Positions 3,175 through 30,718 of a DNA stretch of 39,017 bases are shown in pieces. This stretch comes from Desulfurococcales archaeon (lineage in GTDB: Archaea; Thermoproteota; Thermoprotei_A; Sulfolobales; WAQK01), in the NCBI GenBank assembly GCA_027083135.1, contig JALWQH010000049.1:1-39017 (forward strand), given 5' to 3'. The notes under the pieces were generated by a model. It did not search any database, was not told where the DNA came from, and saw only the letters and a program-made list of their open reading frames with translations. A program made the position numbers and the translations under genes. Positions within the stretch are counted from its first letter, which is position 1; each line of letters opens with the position of its first letter.

Positions 3175-4142
3175 TAGTATCTCACCCTGGGATCAAGGTA
3201 AGCATACATTAGGTCGGTTAGGAAGTTAGCAAGCAGTACGACTACTACCAGTATGAAGAAGAGTCCTTGGAGCACAGGATAATCCCTGTTAATCGCTGCC
3301 TCGTAGGTCAGCTTACCTATGCCATCCCATCCGAAAACAGTCTCGGTGAGCACAGCTCCACTTACGACGAAGGCCATGTCTAGGCCGGCCATGGTTACAA
3401 TTGGTAGGAGGGCATTTCTCGCAGCATGCTTCCATACAACAATTTTCTCTGGAAGGCCCTTAGCTATAGCTGTTGTTATATAGTCTTCCCTCACAACGTT
3501 TATCATGGTGTTCCTCATTATTAGGAAGTCTCCTCCAAGCCTGATCAACGTAATTGAAATCATGGGTAGTGTGAGATGCCATAAGTAGTCTCCTATATAC
3601 TGTAATATATCCTTGTAGCTTCTAGCAGGGGTTATTGTTCCTGATAGGGGGAACCAGTGTACGTGTACTGCGAACATCATTAGCAGCATCAGGCCAAGCC
3701 AGAACACAGGTATAGTGTATAGAACAAGAGCAGTCACTAGGGTGCCTATATCTATTGGAGTCCCCCTACGCCACGCGGCCCATACTCCCAGGATCATGCC
3801 TATAAGCAGCGCCATGCCGTGTGCTGATATTAGGAGTGCGAGAGTGTTAAGCAGTTTTCTGCTAAAAATGACGCTGGATACAGGTGCATTATACACGTAG
3901 CTTATACCCATGTCTCCTTTCAACAGGTTTTTAATATAGATGAGATACTGCTGCCATACAGGCTTGTCCAGGCCCCATAGATGTATGAGGCGTTGAGCAG
4001 CCTCAGGTGTAAGATTGTACTGCTCTAGTATTAGTCCAATAGGGTTGCCTGGCATTAGGCGGAATATGAAGAACATTATGGTTATGAAGAGGAACACCGA
4101 TATTACTAATTGGATGGTTCTGCGGATTACGTAGTCCCGCAG
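3174..4142 (-). CDS. dppB: Peptide ABC transporter permease (DppB/OppB type), start codon non-standard
   Basis: Membrane subunit paired with DppC. It carries the family's RLMPGNP motif after the first membrane segment, further membrane segments, and the EAA loop near TTAIAKGLPEKIVVWKHAARNALLP, ending DPRVRY. The first ATG/GTG/TTG in frame is GTG 4097, in the middle of the first membrane segment with no ribosome site. In-frame codons upstream encode LRDYVIRRTIQLVISV, exactly the expected DppB N-terminus, up to a stop at 4151-4153. Only CTG 4142 or ATC 4148 remain as starts, preceded by AGGTGGT near 4155-4161. I annotate from CTG 4142. A sequencing error is the alternative. Confidence 0.85.
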   Translation of the reverse strand: MRDYVIRRTIQLVISVFLFITIMFFIFRLMPGNPIGLILEQYNLTPEAAQRLIHLWGLDKPVWQQYLIYIKNLLKGDMGISYVYNAPVSSVIFSRKLLNTLALLISAHGMALLIGMILGVWAAWRRGTPIDIGTLVTALVLYTIPVFWLGLMLLMMFAVHVHWFPLSGTITPARSYKDILQYIGDYLWHLTLPMISITLIRLGGDFLIMRNTMINVVREDYITTAIAKGLPEKIVVWKHAARNALLPIVTMAGLDMAFVVSGAVLTETVFGWDGIGKLTYEAAINRDYPVLQGLFFILVVVVLLANFLTDLMYAYLDPRVRY

Positions 4143-4186
4143 TGCGATGGCCTAACCACCTGGCGGCAGTTTAGAATTAGGAGGGT

Positions 4187-4192
4187 AAAAAA
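4187..4192 (-). terminator. T6 run after the peptide-binding protein gene
   Basis: On the minus strand CCTTTTTTACCC lies just past the stop of the binding protein gene. Archaeal termination is typically at such U-rich runs. The same TTTTTTACCC appears after the M20 peptidase gene, which supports a shared terminator form. Confidence 0.5.
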
Positions 4193-4214
4193 GGGTTCTG
4201 GAGGTGGGAGCCGA

Positions 4215-6110
4215 CTACTTTCTCCTAGCTATCCATATGCCTGCTATTAGGAATATTATTATCAGGATTATTGCTGCCGCAACCTGGCTTGACGGCATAC
4301 CTTTCTTAACCGTAGTGGTGGCGGTAGTGGTTGACACCACGGTGCTTGTTGACGTCACAGTCTTCGTCACGGTTACTGTTGAGGTTCCAGGTGCTGGAGG
4401 CGTCGTGCTCGTAGTGGTCGTAGTACTGGTGGTCGTAGTTGTAGTGGTTGTAGTAGTGTGAGCCTTAGGAATGGCCTCCAATATGCCATCATTATCGATG
4501 TCCTTATAGGTGTATTTATCCGACTTGGCAAGCATCTCCTTAGCCTTGTCGAGCTGTGGCTGTATGCTACCTATCCATGGGTACTTCTTAGGGACATTGG
4601 GATCATTATAGCCATCAAAGTAGGGTGATATGTACCAAGTACATGGCTTTCCTAGGCCATTGAGAGGTCCTTCAACAACCTGCTCCTTGGGTACTAGATA
4701 TGCTATGGCTCTTCTCAGCCACACATCGTCTAATGGGGGTCTTCTTAAATTGAAGCCTAGGTAGTAGAAGGTGAATCCTGCCTGCAGGTTAAGATGCAGC
4801 TTAGGATTATTCTTCACGGTATTGACAGCGCTTGTGGGTATATAGTATACATAGAAATCAGCCTCGCCTGCCTGCATGGCCAGCAAAGCAGAGTTGAAGT
4901 TCGTTATTATTCTGAACACGAGTTTATCGACCTTGGGCATATCGCTTCTCCAGTAGTGTGGATACTTAACCAGTTCTACGTATTCTCCTTCAACTCTCTT
5001 TGCCCACATAAAGGGACCGCTTCCAACTTTAGGAGGCTTGGTTGCATTCCAGGGCACATTCTTCCATACATGTTCTGGTATTATAGGCATGCTTGCTAGA
5101 TCGAATAGGAACCAGGCATATGCTTTCTTAAGGTAAACCTTGATGGTATACTTGTCTACTACTTCTGCGTGATCATAGTACTGTGCAATCCTGGAGAACG
5201 ATGGTATATTGTTCTTCTTGATTATGTCGAAGGAGAATTTCACGTCTTCGGCTGTTATAGGTGTTCCATCATGGAATGTGGCGTTATGAACCAGGTAGAA
5301 TGTCCAGACCTTGCCGTCAGCGCTGTGCTCATACTTGTAGGCTAGCCAGGGCCTCGGCATGTAGCTGTCATTCAGGTATACTAGGGTGTCGTAGAGAGCA
5401 CTCCATACCATGCTTTCATAGATGCTCTTCTGCAGATACACGTTCTCCGACTTCAGATCATCTGCCAGGATTACGGTGAATGTGCCGCCTGTCTGACCTT
5501 TCTTGTGGACAGTTCTCCAGGTCATGGGGGATGCATAGCCCCAGTACTCCTTGTGGAACCCTGTCCAGTCAACACTCCATACTTGTGTTAGGTACCTAGT
5601 ATATATTCCAATCCAGGGCACAAGGTCTGCTAGAATTTCCTGGATCTTCCAGATGATTTGCTGCTGTTGTTTAAAGTCGATTGCGCTGTCCAGCTCGTCT
5701 GCAAGTTTATCGAGGGTAGCGTTATGCACTCCTTCAATATTGTATCCTCCAGGCCTATCTTCGCTGCTCCTTATGAACTCGCTGATATACATTGGCATGT
5801 TCTTGCCGCTCCAGCCTAGGATGTAGAGGTCAAAGTCATGCTGGTCTTGCACCTTGCCTATCTCGTAGTTGAAGTCTACAGGCTTAGGGATTATCTTTAT
5901 CCCTATCTTACTTGCATAGTCGGCTAGCAGCTCGCCAGCTCTTATTCTAACGGGATCATATGATGGCATCATTACTGTGAATTTCAGTTTGAGGGGCTTG
6001 GCCGCGGCGGAGGCTCTGAGGGCTCCGCCCAGCGCTGCGAACATTGATACTATGAATACTGTCATTATTATTGAGGCTGCTATTATCTTAGTGTTGAATC
6101 TTAGTCCCAT
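4215..6110 (-). CDS. dppA: Membrane-anchored peptide-binding protein of ABC transporter, circularly permuted (SBP family 5)
   Basis: Extracellular binding protein, 631 residues. Residues 1-36 form a signal peptide. Residues 38-205 match what is normally the C-terminal lobe (LKFTVMMPSYDPVRIRAGELL, GIKIIPKPVDF, HDFDLYILGWSG, QEILADLVPWIGIYTRY). Residues 208-550 match the normal N-terminal and middle parts (GGTFTVILADD, GKVWTFYLVHNATFHDGTPITAEDVKFSFD, VGSGPF, YLGFNLRRPPLDDVWLRRAIAY, ending DIDNDGILEAIPKA). In ordinary members DGDGILE...GKPLKL is continuous, so the chain appears cut there and re-joined at the old termini. A Thr-rich stalk (551-600) and a C-terminal membrane helix with IARRK follow, as known for archaeal binding proteins. 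It heads the dppBCDF genes. Confidence 0.92.
   Translation of the reverse strand: MGLRFNTKIIAASIIMTVFIVSMFAALGGALRASAAAKPLKLKFTVMMPSYDPVRIRAGELLADYASKIGIKIIPKPVDFNYEIGKVQDQHDFDLYILGWSGKNMPMYISEFIRSSEDRPGGYNIEGVHNATLDKLADELDSAIDFKQQQQIIWKIQEILADLVPWIGIYTRYLTQVWSVDWTGFHKEYWGYASPMTWRTVHKKGQTGGTFTVILADDLKSENVYLQKSIYESMVWSALYDTLVYLNDSYMPRPWLAYKYEHSADGKVWTFYLVHNATFHDGTPITAEDVKFSFDIIKKNNIPSFSRIAQYYDHAEVVDKYTIKVYLKKAYAWFLFDLASMPIIPEHVWKNVPWNATKPPKVGSGPFMWAKRVEGEYVELVKYPHYWRSDMPKVDKLVFRIITNFNSALLAMQAGEADFYVYYIPTSAVNTVKNNPKLHLNLQAGFTFYYLGFNLRRPPLDDVWLRRAIAYLVPKEQVVEGPLNGLGKPCTWYISPYFDGYNDPNVPKKYPWIGSIQPQLDKAKEMLAKSDKYTYKDIDNDGILEAIPKAHTTTTTTTTTTSTTTTTSTTPPAPGTSTVTVTKTVTSTSTVVSTTTATTTVKKGMPSSQVAAAIILIIIFLIAGIWIARRK
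4311..4460 (-). repeat. Low-complexity ACN tract coding the Thr/Ser stalk
   Basis: On the minus strand this is a run of ACN codons with interspersed Ser and Val, coding the stalk between the binding domain and the membrane anchor. The plus-strand open frame made of Val codons over the same stretch is its shadow. Confidence 0.85.
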
Positions 6111-11340: not shown

Positions 11341-11925
11341 TTACTTCGGCGGCTCCTGATCCTCCCATAGCTGGAGCATTCGGCGTCTCTTCACCCTGTA
11401 CATAACTCTGTCGAGATACCTGTATACTGTGGCATGCCTTCTACCCTCTATCAGCATCTCAATAGCCTCTCTCGCCGCCTGCGCTTGCTCGTAGTCCCCT
11501 ATAATTGCTACATGAGTATCGCTTACAGATATGTATGTGCCAGTCATCTCCTCGAGGGTTCTCCTAGCCTTCCCTGCCTCCCCTATTATCCTCCCCTTAA
11601 CTCTTGAGAGGTGGTTCGGGGAGTCGCCCACGTATTGCTTTAGATCTATTACTATGAGTATTTGATCCTCCTCAAGTATTCTGAAGGCCCTCTCAGGGCT
11701 GAACCCGTAGCCTATGGCTCTTATGAAGTCCCTGGCCTTCATGAGGTTTATGGGTGGAACTCCAGGGGCTTCAGGCTCTATTATAACCATGCCTGAGGAG
11801 CTGTCAACGGTTATCTTAGTGCGGGTACGCCTCATAAGCTCCTCCTTAACTCTTCCCTTCTCACCTATCAGCACACCTATTCTGCCTAGGGGGACCTTAG
11901 CGTAAAGCCTTGTCACTCCCTGCAA
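11341..11925 (-). CDS. KH-domain RNA-binding protein (archaeal Pno1/Dim2)
   Basis: 194 residues with two KH domains. The first has the GxxG loop IGEKGRVKEEL (about residues 20-30); the second has IGEAGKARRTLEEMTG (about 113-128). This is the archaeal homologue of Pno1/Dim2, which acts in small-subunit rRNA 3'-end maturation together with RIO kinase. The gene directly overlaps the RIO1 gene, as in many archaea. The frame opens at TTG 11925 with GGTGGTGA a few bases upstream. GTG 11916, overlapping the rio1 stop as GTGA, is the alternative; the N-terminal TRLYAKVPLGRIGVLIG fits either. Confidence 0.9.
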   Translation of the reverse strand: MQGVTRLYAKVPLGRIGVLIGEKGRVKEELMRRTRTKITVDSSSGMVIIEPEAPGVPPINLMKARDFIRAIGYGFSPERAFRILEEDQILIVIDLKQYVGDSPNHLSRVKGRIIGEAGKARRTLEEMTGTYISVSDTHVAIIGDYEQAQAAREAIEMLIEGRRHATVYRYLDRVMYRVKRRRMLQLWEDQEPPK

Positions 11926-12704
11926 CTTGTCACCACCCGGTAGGCTTCATCTACGCTTGGAGCACTTATACCTACCTCCCTTGAGAAGAAGCGTATAATA
12001 TTCCTTAGATCCCGTGCCAGGAATTCCTCGGCCATGGGGTGTGAGAGATCAACAGCCTGGGATACATCTATGAGCACCACTTCTCCGTCTCGCAGCATCA
12101 CATTATACTCGCTTAGATCAGCATGTACGAGCCTTGCCTTACAGTATGCTAGGCGAACATATCTTAAAATCTCCTCCAGGATTCTCTCAGCCTCCTCTCC
12201 TCTAGGCGGATTTTCCTTGAGGAGGGGTGCCCGCACACCGTTTTCGCCTATGAACTCCATGACTATTATGGTCTTGTTGAAAGCTATTGGCCTCGGAACC
12301 CTTACGCCTGCCCTGCTCAGCCTTACAAGGTTGCCGTACTCCTTCCTAGCCCAGGCAGCCATTAGGCTCCTAGTATCCCTGGATAAGAGGCCCTGGAATC
12401 TAGGATCACCTTCAATATATTTGCGTATACTTTTCCTAAACTCGGCTGTCACTGTGAGGTATATTTTGACTGCTAGATCCCGTCCCCCTGGATCCTTGGC
12501 CCAGTAGATCCTTGCCTCCTTCCCCGAGCTTACAACACCGTACATGCGTGCTATTATTCTCCTACGCATAAGCTCGTAAAGGGCTGTGAGGGTGAAGGTG
12601 TCGAAGACCTCCTCCACAACCTCGTAGAGATCCTTATCCTTCCTCCTAGGCTCCTCTTTCCTCCTATACTTCTTTAGAAACTTCTCCTCGGGCTCTCCGC
12701 TCAG
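11913..12704 (-). CDS. rio1: RIO1-family serine kinase, apparent CTG start
   Basis: Atypical kinase/ATPase of small-subunit biogenesis. Motifs: nucleotide loop SSGKEARIYWA, lysine in LAVKIYL, hinge VMEFIGENG, catalytic VHADLSEYNVML, metal site LIDVSQAVDLSHP. The first standard start in frame is GTG 12617, but this would remove the conserved N-terminal helix. The frame continues upstream with KDKDLYEVVEEVFD, as in other RIO1 proteins, and contains no ATG, GTG or TTG there. CTG 12704 overlaps the aIF1A stop as CTGA, the same geometry as the ATGA/GTGA overlaps elsewhere, and follows AGGTGGTG by four bases. From CTG the protein has 263 residues, close to characterised archaeal RIO1. Confidence 0.9.
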   Translation of the reverse strand: MSGEPEEKFLKKYRRKEEPRRKDKDLYEVVEEVFDTFTLTALYELMRRRIIARMYGVVSSGKEARIYWAKDPGGRDLAVKIYLTVTAEFRKSIRKYIEGDPRFQGLLSRDTRSLMAAWARKEYGNLVRLSRAGVRVPRPIAFNKTIIVMEFIGENGVRAPLLKENPPRGEEAERILEEILRYVRLAYCKARLVHADLSEYNVMLRDGEVVLIDVSQAVDLSHPMAEEFLARDLRNIIRFFSREVGISAPSVDEAYRVVTSCRE

Positions 12705-13033
12705 AAAGCACCACCTTCCAGAAACTCGGGGGGCAGGTATCCCAGCTCTATCAGCTTCCTAACCTCGTCTCCAAGATACCTGTGAACTATGTCGCCCTTC
12801 CGATCCCCCTGAAACTCCCAGGGAACCATTAGTACAACGTCTCCCTCCCTAATCCACACTCTCTTCTTCATCCTGCCTGGAATCCTACCCATCCTGACCT
12901 TGCCGTCGAGGCATCTGGCCATTATGTGCTCTGCTCCAAGCATCCGTTCAACCACGCATAGTATCTCTCCCTCCCCCGGCAGCACGAGTTCCTTAGGCCT
13001 CTCCTCTCTTCTCCTCTTCTTCTTACGCGCCAT
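12701..13033 (-). CDS. eif1A: Translation initiation factor aIF1A
   Basis: OB-fold initiation factor, 110 residues. It has a basic tail MARKKKRRREERPKEL, then ELVLPGEGEILCVVERMLG and the OB-fold core ARCLDGKVRMGRIPGRMKKRVWIREGDVVLMVPW, ending with the helical GDIVHRYLGDEV. It acts in the ribosomal A site during start selection. I choose ATG 13033 because GGTGGGAGA precedes it and the sequence MARKKK is typical; the frame runs on to 13087 without support. It sits between NMD3 and RIO1, in a cluster of initiation and ribosome-biogenesis genes. Confidence 0.95.
   Translation of the reverse strand: MARKKKRRREERPKELVLPGEGEILCVVERMLGAEHIMARCLDGKVRMGRIPGRMKKRVWIREGDVVLMVPWEFQGDRKGDIVHRYLGDEVRKLIELGYLPPEFLEGGAF
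12709..12716 (-). promoter_or_regulatory. Shine-Dalgarno AGGTGGTG before the apparent CTG start of rio1
   Basis: AGGTGGTG sits inside the last codons of the aIF1A gene, four bases ahead of CTG 12704. The spacing equals that of the dppD site, which supports initiation at the CTG. Confidence 0.6.
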
Positions 13034-13073: not shown

Positions 13074-14144
13074 TTAAATTTTCCCAAGAATATGGAGTTC
13101 TCCGCTCCTCATAACTGCTTTCACCTTGTCCCCCGGCTTAAGTGTACCCGCCAGCCTTGCCTTGGAGAGTGGGATGTCAAGCGTCGAGTAGTTATCCATG
13201 TCTAGCAGGTATATGAGATCCCTGGTTATAGCTGTAACCATGAGCACCTTAACCTCTTTCTCACACACTATCTCCAGCCCCCCGGACTCCCAGAACTCTT
13301 CTCCGCTGAGACTTGTTCTTCTCCCTCCAGCCTCCTCTAAGATTATCCTGTTACCTGAAATCCCCTTAATCACGGCGGGCCTATCCTTATAGATCACTAT
13401 GTCTCCCTCCCTTATTCTAGGTATTCTTACAAGTATGGTTGTCTGCACCTTGGCCTTACCTCCCCTTCTCCCCACAACCTTATGTGTTTCAACAACCTTT
13501 GCGGCAAGCCTGCTTCTAAGCTTGGATGCTATGCTTCTAGCAGAGGCTTGGTCAAGTATTTTTAGATCAAGGCCCTCCCTCTTCTCCTCGACTTCACCAA
13601 TAGTATCGTAGAGGTGGCGTGGAAGCCTGCGTAGAAGCCTTGACACCTCCCTCCTCTCATCATCACTGAGCCTGCCGTCCTCTCCGCGTAGCTGTAGGAT
13701 CGCCTCATAGGCCCTACCAGCCTTTCTGAGGCATGAGGGGCAGAGCACGTGTTTTACGCGTAGCGGTATTATGGCCTCATACCTGGCTTCGATCCCCCTG
13801 TGAAACCTTGCTCCAAGAAGCACGCGTGCTACTCCTCTATTTCGATCCTCCATTCCCACCACTATGTTTTCAACCCATATCTCCCTTACCTCGGGATTAG
13901 GCTTAGCCTTGGAGAGGATCTCGGCTTCAACCGCTGCACGCAGTGTTTCCTCAACGCTGCCTTCGGGTGGAAGCCATGCTCCCTGAACTCTTAGGCTACT
14001 GCACCTAGGGCATATTGTAACCTCTATTTCCCCTGGAAGCTTGGCTACCCCCTTCTCCTCAAGATAGCATTCCAGGCATAGGTTCCCTATGAACGGCCTC
14101 CCAGGCTCCTCAGGCCTCCCACATCTAGCGCAGATTTTCCTCAC
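13074..14144 (-). CDS. NMD3-related ribosome export/biogenesis protein
   Basis: Archaeal NMD3, 356 residues. The N-terminal zinc-binding part has CARCGRPEE...NLCLECY and a second pair CPRCSSL, with another at VLCPSCLRKAG. The middle is helical. The C-terminal part is beta-rich (REGDIVIYKDRPAVIKGISG; GTLKPGDKVKAVMRSGELH), resembling the SH3/OB-like domains of NMD3. In eukaryotes it escorts the 60S subunit; in archaea it is thought to bind the large subunit. GTG 14144 overlaps the DUF424 stop as GTGA; GTG 14147 is the next alternative. Confidence 0.88.
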   Translation of the reverse strand: MRKICARCGRPEEPGRPFIGNLCLECYLEEKGVAKLPGEIEVTICPRCSSLRVQGAWLPPEGSVEETLRAAVEAEILSKAKPNPEVREIWVENIVVGMEDRNRGVARVLLGARFHRGIEARYEAIIPLRVKHVLCPSCLRKAGRAYEAILQLRGEDGRLSDDERREVSRLLRRLPRHLYDTIGEVEEKREGLDLKILDQASARSIASKLRSRLAAKVVETHKVVGRRGGKAKVQTTILVRIPRIREGDIVIYKDRPAVIKGISGNRIILEEAGGRRTSLSGEEFWESGGLEIVCEKEVKVLMVTAITRDLIYLLDMDNYSTLDIPLSKARLAGTLKPGDKVKAVMRSGELHILGKI

Positions 14145-14446
14145 CACCGTACACTCACCACCTGTGCGTGAGGCACGCCTGCAATCCTTATAATGGCTTC
14201 AGGATGCACGTATCCCTCCTCCACGGCCTTGGATACAGCATGCTCCCCTACAAGGTTCATTATGGTTGCCTTACCCATATATTCTGCAAGCTCATCCAGG
14301 CTTGCCAGGAAGCCTCCATAAAAGGCTGTGTTAACCTCTAATCTAAGCCTACCCTCCTCTAGACGCCTGCCGAGAAGCTCTGCATCACAGGCGGCGAGTA
14401 TGATGTCGCCGCCCACTCTATGCAGCTTCACATATACTTCCGGCAT
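14141..14446 (-). CDS. DUF424 family protein
   Basis: 101 residues matching the small archaeal DUF424 family: MPEVYVKLHRVGGDIILAACDAELLG, then FYGG and a C-terminal hydrophobic strand IRIAGVPHAQVVSV. The biochemical role is not established. The gene is commonly found between aIF2-beta and NMD3 in archaea, which points to translation. It lies 15 bases after aIF2-beta and overlaps NMD3 by four bases. Confidence 0.85.
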   Translation of the reverse strand: MPEVYVKLHRVGGDIILAACDAELLGRRLEEGRLRLEVNTAFYGGFLASLDELAEYMGKATIMNLVGEHAVSKAVEEGYVHPEAIIRIAGVPHAQVVSVRW

Positions 14447-18397: not shown

Positions 18398-19285
18398 CTA
18401 AGTAGTTGTTGTTCCAGGGCCCTGCTCCCTACATATGAGCACCGAGGATGGTGAGTGGCGTAGCACCACGCTTAGAGTGCGGCCACGCAGTATTTCTGCC
18501 AGTCCCCTTCCCCTCTCCGGAGGACCCATTATTATGAGGGATGCATCTATTCTCACAGCGAAGTCCACTATGGCGTTTCCTGTTGTTCCCCGGAGTATGA
18601 GGCTTTTAGGATATAGGCCTGTCTTCCGTAAGGCCTTCACGTATTCGTCTAGCCTTGACCCCATGCTGGCTGTTTTTCTCCGAACCACGCTTACTATGAA
18701 GATCTCGGCTCCCGTGCTAAGCGCTATTGCTGCGGAGTGTCTAAGTATGCATGTCTCCGGACGGCTTAGATCAATTGCAGCAACTATTCTCCGGAAAATC
18801 AGGGGTTTTGCAACTATGCTTCTCCCTTTCTCATTATAGCTCACTATGTCTTTAACTATGAGCACAGGCTTGACAGCTGTTCTAGCAAGCTCCTCGCTGA
18901 CGCTTCCCAGGAGAATGGATTTAAACCAGCTTCTACCATGCGAGCCTGCAACTATTAGGTCAACGCTTAGCTTCTCAGCCAGCTCTGATATCACTGTGGC
19001 CGGCCATCCTCTACTCACAATCGAGCTTGCATCGAAGAGTTCCTTCAGCTTAGCCTCGTATTGCCTCAGCCTCCTCTCAGCCTCCTTCTCAGCTGCATTT
19101 AGAAGCGCGTTGACATCGTAGCCTGAGATCGGGTGCTCGTATTCACTGGGGTCAACCACGTGTACGAGTATTATTCTCCTTGTACCCAGGGCTTTCAGGC
19201 TCCTAAGCCACTCTACAAGCTTGTCTGAGACAGGTGAAAGATCCAGTGCTACGAGCACCTTCTCGTATCTTGCAGGCTCTATCAT
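18398..19285 (-). CDS. Tandem universal stress protein (two UspA domains)
   Basis: 295 residues made of two UspA domains (about 8-145 and 163-288). The first has the ATP-binding motif GSHGRSWFKSILLGSVS; the second has GPPERGRG...RGRTLSVVLRHSPSSVLI, a less canonical form. The start ATG overlaps the stop of the DUF1646 transporter gene upstream by four bases, so the two are translationally coupled. In bacteria and archaea UspA domains often regulate ion transporters, sometimes fused to them; a regulatory role for the partner transporter is inferred. Confidence 0.88.
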   Translation of the reverse strand: MIEPARYEKVLVALDLSPVSDKLVEWLRSLKALGTRRIILVHVVDPSEYEHPISGYDVNALLNAAEKEAERRLRQYEAKLKELFDASSIVSRGWPATVISELAEKLSVDLIVAGSHGRSWFKSILLGSVSEELARTAVKPVLIVKDIVSYNEKGRSIVAKPLIFRRIVAAIDLSRPETCILRHSAAIALSTGAEIFIVSVVRRKTASMGSRLDEYVKALRKTGLYPKSLILRGTTGNAIVDFAVRIDASLIIMGPPERGRGLAEILRGRTLSVVLRHSPSSVLICREQGPGTTTT

Positions 19286-27436: not shown

Positions 27437-30400
27437 CTACCCACCTCCCAACCTGCGGAGCTTTGATACAAGTGTATTGTATATTTCATCAAGCTTGCTC
27501 AGCTCGTCGTTAGGGACTGTGAACTTAGCTTTGATGAGCTCTGTTATCTCCTTGTCGAGATTCCTCCTGATCTCCCTTACAGGTACCCCCCTGGAAACCA
27601 GTCTTCTAGCCTCATAGTAGAAGTCTAGGATCGTTTTAAGGAGTTTAAACTGCTTTATAGGCGGTGTGAAGGCATCCACGGGGTCAAAGGCATTTTGCTT
27701 GAGGAATCCCTCCTTAATTATTCTTGCAGCCTCCAGGATAAGTTTATCCTGTTCTGATAGGCTTTCAGGCCCTACAAGCCTTACTATTTCTTTAAGCTCA
27801 TCCTCCCTTAGCAGCACACGCATGGCTTCATCCCTGTAGTGCTTCCATGAAGGATCAACGTTTTCATGCCACCATTTTGCAACGAGATCGGAGTATGCGG
27901 AGTAGCTGAGGATCCAGTTTATAGCTGGGTAGTGACGCGAGTATGCGAGAGCCGTGTCCAGAGCCCAGAATACTCTTATGAACCTCTTAGTATGGCTTGT
28001 AACAGGCTCTGTGAAGTCTCCTCCTGGAGGAGATACTGCTCCCACCAGTGTGACTGATCCTATTCTCTCAGGTCTTCCAGCTATTACTGCTCTTCCTGCA
28101 CGCTCATAGAACTCCGCCAGCCTTGAAGCCAGGTAGCTGGGATAACCCTCCTCGGCTGGCATCTCCTCTAGGCGGCCTGCTATCTCCCTCAGCGCTTCAG
28201 CCCATCTTGAAGTAGAATCAGCTACCAGCAGGACATCGTAGCCCATATCCCTGTAGTATTCGGCCATAGTGACGCCAACATAGATGCTTGCCTCTCTGGC
28301 GGCTACAGGCATATTACTAGTATTCGCTATCAATATTGTACGCTCCATGAGTGGTTTACCAGACCATGGGTCCTTGTATTGGGGGAACCTTAGCAGCACT
28401 TCAGTCATCTCATTCCCCCTCTCGCCGCATCCGATGTAGATTACAACTCTAGCAGCACTCCACTGCGCTAAGCTGTGAAGCGTTACAGTATTGTGGAGTA
28501 TGGAGGGCATCTCGCCGCCGACGAAATTATGGGTCTTAGGCACAGTTAGATCATAGACTGTGAAGTCTCCTTTAACCACCTCTATGCCTACAACCTCGTC
28601 TACAGCTACATGTTCCAGGGCCTTGGATGAAGATTCCAGTATGCTGTATCCTAGGACTCCAGCCATTATGGCTAGTTTCCTTGAGACTGCTCTCCCCCCA
28701 ATAATGATGCTGTCCGCCGGCTCTACTCCTAGACTACTCGACTCTTCAATATAGGCTGCCAGCCTGTCGATCTTAGGTATATCTAGGCCTCGGAGCTCTC
28801 TGAGGCCTAGCTTATCATAGAAGCGTTTCAGCTCCTCAAATCCTGTAATTAGTATTCTATGATGAGTCCTTTCTTCCAGCTTCTCCTCCTCAACACTATA
28901 GAGTACTCCTAGGCGGGATAGAAGGTAGGCTATCCCTGTTGCAAGGCATTTGTTGGTAGTAGTTATCTCCACCCTGCTTTCCTCGAAGCTGCCGCTGCCT
29001 AGATAATAGCCGCGTAGGAAGCCTGCTACAGCTTCCTCAGGGCTTCTTAGTATGGCTGGAGGCACACATACCTCGCCTGTCTTTCCATGGAGGGGTATAC
29101 CGATGTTTTCAAGTATTTTAACTAGGAGTATTGACCGTGCTGAGACGGCCTTCATTACCTTATAGTCGCTCTGAACTGGGCTTATGTCGAACAGCTGCTT
29201 CAAGAGTTCAGTAAACCTCCTTCTAACAGCTTTATTACTACTGAATAGTCTGACCTCTCTTCCCGTGAGCCGTCCCTCGGAGACAATTAGGCCTAGCAGT
29301 TCTGCCAGCCTGCCGTCAACATGGCTTGGCACGGATATATCTTTGCGGCTCCTAGCCATTCCTATGCGGCTGGGCTCCGGAGGCTCTCTTCTAAGCGCAG
29401 CGAAGAGTGATTTATAGTGGCTTAGCCTGGGATGCTGCTTCCCCTTTAACACACTGGAGAGTGACGCAGGGTTCATTCCTATTTTTTCTGCAACCTTCCT
29501 CAGGCTGCTCAGCCTTTCCCTCAGCCTCCAGGCAGCTATTCTGAACTCCTCTAAGGAGAATTCATCCCGAATCGTTGCATCCTCTGGGAGGAATCTGTGG
29601 AGAGGCTGAGGCTCGCCTGCTATGGGTATAAGCCTAGGTATGATGAGCCGCTCACCCGGCTTAATGAGCGCTGCAGGCTTCTCCTCAAAGTATCCCTTAG
29701 TATTGAGGATTATTAGGCGGTGTGCAGGAGTGACCTCTATCCTCCTCCCCTTTTTCGTCGTTATGCGGACTATGCTGTCCGACCTGCCCTTATATAAATG
29801 AGAGACCCTAGCTTCCCTAAGCCTCTCCCCGTCAAACGTTATTATTCTTAAGTTCAGGGCGGAGATGTCTATTAGGTTCTCGTCAGGCTCAGCAGGTATT
29901 CTGACACCCTTATCCGAGTATTTCTCATAGACTTTCTCTATGGGTAGAATAGTGCCATCAGCCAGCATCACTGGGGTTCCAGGCAGCACGCATTTCCCTG
30001 TGCCGAATCCTCCAGGTATGGCTCCTGTACCACCCTTAGCCATGGGGAAAAGCGTGTCAAGTATTCTCATACCTGTTATGAGGGGCTCTGCTGGCTCAAG
30101 CTTCTCCTTGAATGGCCTGGGCCTCCTAGCAGGCCACCTATGATACATTTTAAGATCTATTTTCCTCCCATCCTGTTCAAGAATGGCTATGGTGTCCTCA
30201 ATCGTGTATTCTCCTTCAGGCATCAGCTCGACTAGTTTGCCGTGGAGGTTAGGGGGAACCATGACGGTGTGCTCTATTAGGCTTGTCTCCTGCACTTTTC
30301 CAAGCATATCTCCTCCTTTCACCTTGTCTCCAGGCTTAACCTCGCTGCTAGGCTTAAACAGCCACTTCTTATCTCTTGGAAGGGCGTTTACCTTTACACC

Positions 30401-30718
30401 CCTCTTAACAAACACGCTTCCACTCTTCTCAACTATGCGTTCTAGGGGGCGCTGTATGCCGTCGAAAATTTGGGTTAGAAGGCCTGGCCCCAGCTCCACT
30501 GAGAGCGGGTAGCCTGTACCATATACTGGTTCACCTGGCCTTAGACCGCTTGTCGACTCGTAGACCTGCACATACGCCTTGTCTCCCACTATCCTTGTAA
30601 CCTCTCCTATCAGCCTATCCTCTCCTACTTCAACCATCTCGTACATCTGCGCACCGCTCATACCTTCAGCAACTACTAGCGGCCCGCTTATCCTAATGAT
30701 CCTGCCTACTACGGGCAT
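27437..30718 (-). CDS. atpA: A/V-type ATP synthase catalytic subunit A, interrupted by an intein
   Basis: 1093 residues as encoded; 592 after protein splicing, the usual AtpA length. The N-extein runs to Lys242 in GGFGTGK and the C-extein resumes at Thr744 with [11 protein letters not shown], so the intein splits the P-loop between Lys and Thr. Without splicing the ATPase cannot be active. C-extein markers include [43 protein letters not shown] and [22 protein letters not shown] overlaps the AtpE stop (TAATG). Codon use in intein and exteins looks alike. Confidence 0.96.
28490..29992 (-). other. AtpA intein (501 residues) with LAGLIDADG endonuclease domain, probably degenerate
   Basis: Intein from Cys243 to Asn743. 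Block A is [13 protein letters not shown], block [13 protein letters not shown] (TxxH), block [16 protein letters not shown], block G SILHN, and the +1 residue is Thr. A LAGLIDADG-type endonuclease lies at about 470-640: first motif [13 protein letters not shown] keeps an acidic residue; the second, [13 protein letters not shown], has Ser where the catalytic Asp is expected. A stretch at about 403-440 ([26 protein letters not shown]) looks like a helix-turn-helix DNA-binding module. The same P-loop site holds inteins in other archaeal AtpA genes. Confidence 0.93.

Follow-up and report, generated by a model that had tools for sequence, protein, structure and literature searches.

According to a review, archaeal translation starts at AUG, GUG and UUG (PMC7531240). 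Starts outside this set are known from bacteria, where infC, a translation-initiation gene, begins with a near-cognate ATT or ATC codon that is selected against by an initiation factor and is often misannotated, and where Streptomyces sigR carries a non-canonical GTC start that is repressed by IF3 and keeps two coupled products in ratio (both described in PMC5472188). In eukaryotes, the initiation-fidelity factor eIF1 has a suboptimal start of its own (cited in PMC6237735), and the N-terminal tail of yeast eIF1A promotes suboptimal start use (PMC5756025). In archaea, S. solfataricus aIF1 favours discrimination against non-canonical starts (PMC6237735). In H. volcanii as in E. coli, loss of KsgA, which leaves the 30S subunit unmethylated, gives a set of up-regulated proteins in which non-AUG starts are over-represented (PMC7897474). 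Finally, archaeal termination-reinitiation pairs combine a stop/start overlap with an internal Shine-Dalgarno (SD) sequence (PMC6728339). Here we describe a RIO1 kinase gene of a Desulfurococcales archaeon that appears to combine such an overlap with a CTG start.

The gene lies in a stretch of 39,017 nucleotides (contig JALWQH010000049.1, hereafter the window), in a minus-strand row encoding an NMD3-like protein, aIF1A, RIO1 and a KH-domain (Dim2-like) protein (Table 1). Its product matches Pfam PF01163 (E 1.1e-62) and, below the cut-off of that model, the haloarchaeal NCBIfam NF041310. The nearest solved structures are RIO1 kinases, with RIO2 matches far weaker, and on these matches the gene encodes a RIO-domain protein of the RIO1 type. 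The upstream aIF1A gene starts at ATG 13033, with an in-frame TTG 13087 also open further upstream; its N-terminus (MARKKK...) was aligned to relatives, and its last codons carry the RIO1 SD.

Table 1. Coordinates of the features at the aIF1A/RIO1 junction and of the flanking genes.
Feature	Position	Strand	Remark
NMD3-family gene	13074..14147	minus	upstream, same cluster; Pfam PF04981
aIF1A gene	12701..13033	minus	NCBIfam NF003082 above cut-off; Pfam PF01176
Shine-Dalgarno AGGTGGTG	12709..12716	minus	inside the aIF1A coding sequence, 4 nt before CTG
Proposed RIO1 start codon CTG	12702..12704	minus	no other NTG/ATN codon of the open frame is well placed for the SD
CTGA overlap of RIO1 start and aIF1A stop	12701..12704	minus	read from the sequence
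GTG, internal Val30	12615..12617	minus	gene finders would start here; Val column in homologues
RIO1 kinase gene	11913..12704	minus	263 codons from CTG, plus stop
KH-domain (Dim2/Pno1-like) gene	11341..11925	minus	downstream, same cluster; NCBIfam NF010328 above cut-off

The open RIO1 frame extends over 11913-12758, where 12758 marks the first codon past an in-frame TAG; the TGA stop is at 11915-11913. The original prediction that this frame holds no ATG, GTG or TTG above GTG 12617-12615 was borne out, and no such codon is able to give the conserved protein. Eighteen open codons precede CTG 12704, and the only other NTG/ATN codon among them is ATA 12740. The predicted geometry proved exact: AGGTGGTG stands four bases before the CTG, which shares two bases with the aIF1A stop (12703-12701) to form CTGA. 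The duplex of AGGTGGTG with the 16S tail, whose sequence was taken from general knowledge, has an energy of -11.8 kcal/mol. Both sequence hallmarks of a termination-reinitiation pair, an overlapping stop and start and an internal SD, are found at this junction, as CTGA and AGGTGGTG, with CTGA partly accounted for by the aIF1A C-terminus (NTC TGA). Similar overlaps, also foreseen, occur elsewhere in the window as GTGA (2281-2278) and ATGA (22995-22992), and a TTGA overlap is found at 26022-26019. RNA structure at the aIF1A/RIO1 junction showed nothing beyond shuffles (z +1.06), and no inverted repeats were found there. On this sequence evidence, CUG 12704 is well supported as what appears to be the only credible RIO1 start in the window.

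The RIO1 junction was compared across 98 genomes of the same order and 80 named loci, yielding 170 rows, with four loci from the window's own genome (L001-L004), 17 duplicates (170 to 153) and one fragment (L173) left out. Of the 152 distinct loci, 37 lack any ATG, GTG or TTG upstream of the conserved KDKD motif (hereafter start-less); another tally gave 36, as it took account of a GTG at codon -8 in L108. Start-less RIO1 genes occur in 25 of the 89 order genomes tallied and in seven of 11 families (f1 2/3, f2 8/13, f3 4/13, f5 2/6, f8 5/9, f9 2/6 and f11 2/12), with none in f4, f6, f7 and f10; the tally covers 89 of the 98 genomes, G069 having no match, G036 and G037 being fragments, and G008, G015, G034, G054, G063 and G081 having paralogue-level matches only. 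None was found among 34 named loci from Bathyarchaeota, Hecatellales, Methanomethylicota, Thermofilum and similar groups. In 30 of the 37 start-less loci a CTG, ATA, ATT, ATC or ACG stands in the RIO1 frame 3-9 nt after the strongest SD, against 7 and 4 loci for the two remaining frames; at this distance none of the 37 has a usual start in any of the three frames. The proposed starts are ATA (e.g. GGGTGAGTTCTAATA in L016, L018, L019 and L048; as an ATAG overlap in L095, at whose place L092 has TTG), CTG (L017, L080, L116, L118, L120, L128 and L133), ATT (L059), ATC (L040) and perhaps GTA (L157). Single-contig genomes also hold start-less RIO1 genes (L017, L116, L128, L133, L149 and L172). Comparison of this codon in orthologous loci had been put forward as a check, ATG or GTG in sister species being taken as support. 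ATG, GTG or TTG does stand in some loci, in agreement with this expectation, whereas others have ATA, CTG, ATT, ATC or GTA, so that the picture is not simply one of ATG or GTG. Since homologous places show varied near-cognate codons, the CTG of the window is no isolated oddity but a recurrent near-cognate start; the initial observation is real, and the pattern is broader than a single codon.

The window's family comprises three genomes, all with an SD and CTGA (GTCTGA in L005 and ATCTGA in L006). Between L005 and L006, the 37 codons from CTGA on are weakly constrained (pN/pS 0.54), so that CTG is only a possible start there. Constraint is strong from codon -25 on (pN/pS 0.02), where L005 has ATA and L006 has GTG, and this sister genus may start at ATA or GTG at -25 rather than at CTG. 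Such an exchange of ATA and GTG at one place between sister species is evidence of the kind that the proposed ortholog comparison called for. No second candidate like the -25 codon of the sisters was found in the window RIO1.

A usual start is also lacking from aIF1A in 15 of 131 loci and in 12 of 79 genomes of the order, the other 10 of the 89 having no readable aIF1A; L127 and L130 enter as counts, their start regions not being displayed. Nine of the 13 f3 genomes are among these, and most of them read SD, six bases, ATA and then a short basic beginning of the protein. An apparent ATA start after a strong SD was seen in the Ignisphaera-type loci L012, L013, L015, L017, L020, L024, L030, L057, L062, L080 and L091, and an apparent CTG start in f10 and g37 loci, there preceded by an SD that contains GTG; in family f8, aIF1A reads CTG-GCN-AAG-AAG in L118, L120 and L133, the last of which also has TTG. 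RIO2 has no usual start in three of 30 genomes, and reading by eye gave ACG in some Ignisphaera-type genomes (L221, L224, L228 and L229) and CTG in genus g13 (L215, L216 and L218).

Under a similar rule, only one of 271 control genes in total has no usual start: KH 1/91, the 101-aa neighbour gene 0/37, aIF1 0/30, uS8 0/28, aIF2-gamma 0/29, RadA 0/27 readable of 28, and Kae1 0/29. Kae1 had seemed start-less in four stretches, which was ruled out by a usual in-frame start in 29 of 29 readable loci (the motif was not found in L377); in family f8 it carries a long N-terminal extension that overlaps the preceding gene, with GTG in frame (L348-L351, L364, L369, L372-L375 and L380). RadA of the window's genome (G000:C54:16193-18640, minus strand) matches its family in two pieces that lie in a single frame of 864 codons, a pattern that an intein would produce. 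An intein is present in the window gene for A-type ATPase subunit A (27437-30718, minus strand), with a splicing-domain match at 292-743 and a LAGLIDADG domain. NMD3 and aIF2-beta were kept out of the control set. NMD3 was flagged in 10 of 50 loci, and most of the flagged rows that were read show a usual start just past a badly placed anchor; aIF2-beta was flagged in 10 of 35, and its N-terminus is variable. In L092 the NMD3 gene reads GGGTGAGCGGGT ACG GGT and has no usual start ahead of its matched part; it possibly starts at ACG.

When the start was assigned simply to whichever codon had the best SD, near-cognates came out for RIO1 (72/151), aIF1A (33/130) and RIO2 (10/30), against lower counts for the controls KH (6/93), aIF1 (4/30), aIF2-gamma (0/29), RadA (4/26) and Kae1 (1/30); this rule gives false positives, and our conclusions do not rest on it. 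The base rate of near-cognate starts comes from sampled stretches. The sample comprised 564 conserved ORFs in 40 stretches, and the automatic screen flagged 41 of them (17 of 238 in Ignisphaera-type genomes and 24 of 326 in family f8), a looser earlier pass having flagged 42 of 250. By eye, four RIO1, four aIF1A and the candidates in L336 and L337 were judged real; the remaining flags are the four Kae1 genes and frames that look antisense, overlapping or unconserved. The L336 candidate is a CTG in a gene of the amino-acid-kinase family (18398-19180, minus strand) and the L337 candidate an ATA in an ERCC4-domain nuclease gene (3561-4295, plus strand). From the control and genome-sample counts it follows that the near-cognate habit is concentrated rather than general, though not exclusive.

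The reading we favour, with a probability of roughly 0.85, is that RIO1 is translated from CUG 12704 as a 263-residue kinase, the ribosome being held on the CUG by the SD and the codon read by initiator Met-tRNA. The frame, the overlap, the SD, the conserved N-terminus and the repeated lack of usual starts in relatives are all directly observed. The CUG would be reached either by ribosomes that have just terminated aIF1A translation at the overlapping UGA or by 30S subunits that AGGUGGUG, within the last part of the aIF1A message, recruits. Strong pairing with the SD would keep them there, and the initiator Met-tRNA would be accepted despite the first-position mismatch. Termination-reinitiation would then be the route to RIO1, and the weak start may hold RIO1 synthesis at a low level that responds to initiation stringency.

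Initiation at GTG 12617, the first usual in-frame start codon, would make the 29 codons that separate it from CTG 12704-12702 (LSGEPEEKFLKKYRRKEEPRRKDKDLYEV) fortuitous. An AlphaFold model built from 35 sequences leaves residues 1-31 at pLDDT below 50, in keeping with such a start; the fold alone does not demand the N-terminal segment, and we dropped structure as an argument for it. The strong SD, however, is at the CTG, and the upstream codons are conserved as protein. As originally predicted, the residues ahead of Val30, which include the stretch KDKDLYEVVEEVFD, fit a RIO1 N-terminus: they align to other RIO1 proteins, with Asp at the D23 and D25 columns in 121 and 119 of the 152 loci, and in a 35-row alignment D23 and V30 are invariant and D25 nearly so. 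From the proposed start to the KDKD motif, pN/pS was 0.00-0.26 in 14 of 14 near-relative pairs, close to the kinase core, showing purifying selection on the codons that follow the proposed starts. A protein begun at CTG is also as long as expected: window residue 11 aligns with residue 8 of A. fulgidus Rio1, which has 258 residues. The N-terminal segment is thus conserved on sequence comparison, and low-confidence in the model. The Val30 column itself is Val in 119 of 152 loci, encoded by GTT (63), GTA (24), GTG (21) and GTC (11), and because 98 of these 119 valines are GTT, GTA or GTC, GTG 12617 does not appear to act as a start. We therefore regard initiation at GTG as improbable, and the original proposal of a CTG start gains from the SD, the conserved N-terminus and the internal valine alike. 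It is still less probable that frameshifting near the aIF1A stop yields an aIF1A-RIO1 fusion with no separate initiation. The window RIO1 frame is open 55 nt before that stop, and -1 frameshifting has been described in archaea (PMC8037382), but among the 34 start-less loci with a stop found, the RIO1 frame opens after the aIF1A stop in 14 and 4 nt before it in nine more, so that a shift cannot, or hardly can, join the frames; fusion was accordingly rejected for most relatives, where a good SD and a near-cognate codon are present instead. Least probable of all is a base error masking a true ATG, GTG or TTG. The window does come from a 57-contig assembly, but the C of the CTG is kept in both other genomes of the family, which makes a lone error unlikely, and single-contig genomes too have RIO1 genes of the start-less kind.

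A different matter is whether a CUG start at RIO1 carries any regulatory meaning. The decoding region of the small subunit is the site of action of RIO1, RIO2 and aIF1A alike. A near-cognate start recurs in the genes of these subunit-acting factors (RIO1 25/89, aIF1A 12/79, RIO2 3/30; controls 1/271). By analogy, hyperthermophilic Thermoproteota may possess an equivalent of the infC circuit, in which the near-cognate starts of aIF1A, RIO1 and RIO2 (ATA, CTG and ACG) would report 30S stringency or maturity and feed back on initiation fidelity and 30S maturation. Alternatively, the start codon may drift without regulatory meaning, strong SDs and stop-start coupling having eased the selection on it, a reading to which we give even odds. 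It agrees with the strength of the SD, with the free variation of the codon (ATA, CTG, ATT, ATC, GTA, TTG, GTG and ATG) and with the isolated candidates in the L336 and L337 genes; against it, other genes of these genomes keep usual starts, as the controls do, and the habit is shared by RIO2 and by aIF1A, which is not preceded by the aIF1A/RIO1 junction. Drift permitted by strong SDs fits the data as the circuit does, and we consider the circuit plausible in the light of the published findings on infC, sigR, eIF1, eIF1A, aIF1 and KsgA, at odds well short of even.

A search of titles and abstracts, covering few subscription journals, for archaeal CUG, AUA, ACG and near-cognate starts, archaeal RIO1 and Aeropyrum N-termini found no description. 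If our reading is correct, CUG and AUA, and perhaps AUU, AUC and ACG, would be regular, evolutionarily kept archaeal starts in core translation genes, and annotation restricted to ATG, GTG and TTG would truncate RIO1, aIF1A and RIO2 in many hyperthermophiles. A weak start serving as a sensor of initiation stringency would then arise in archaea as it does in bacteria (infC) and eukaryotes (eIF1).

Collectively, the junction resembles the described archaeal termination-reinitiation pairs in its architecture and differs from them in its codon: coupling has been established for ATGA and TGATG, and neither 'CTG' nor 'non-canonical' appears in the main text of PMC6728339. Unlike the archaeal genes, sigR encodes a bacterial sigma factor and is no translation gene (PMC5472188), and the suboptimal start of eukaryotic eIF1 is an AUG in poor context that is used by a scanning mechanism and serves autoregulation (cited in PMC6237735). 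In the case of infC, the weak start is proven to be autoregulatory (PMC5472188), whereas for the archaeal genes such a role is suggested by sequence, and here several different codons are spread over RIO1, aIF1A and RIO2 and are read by archaeal machinery. Similar to infC, near-cognate starts recur in genes whose products act on the 30S subunit, and by this likeness they may have a regulatory role.
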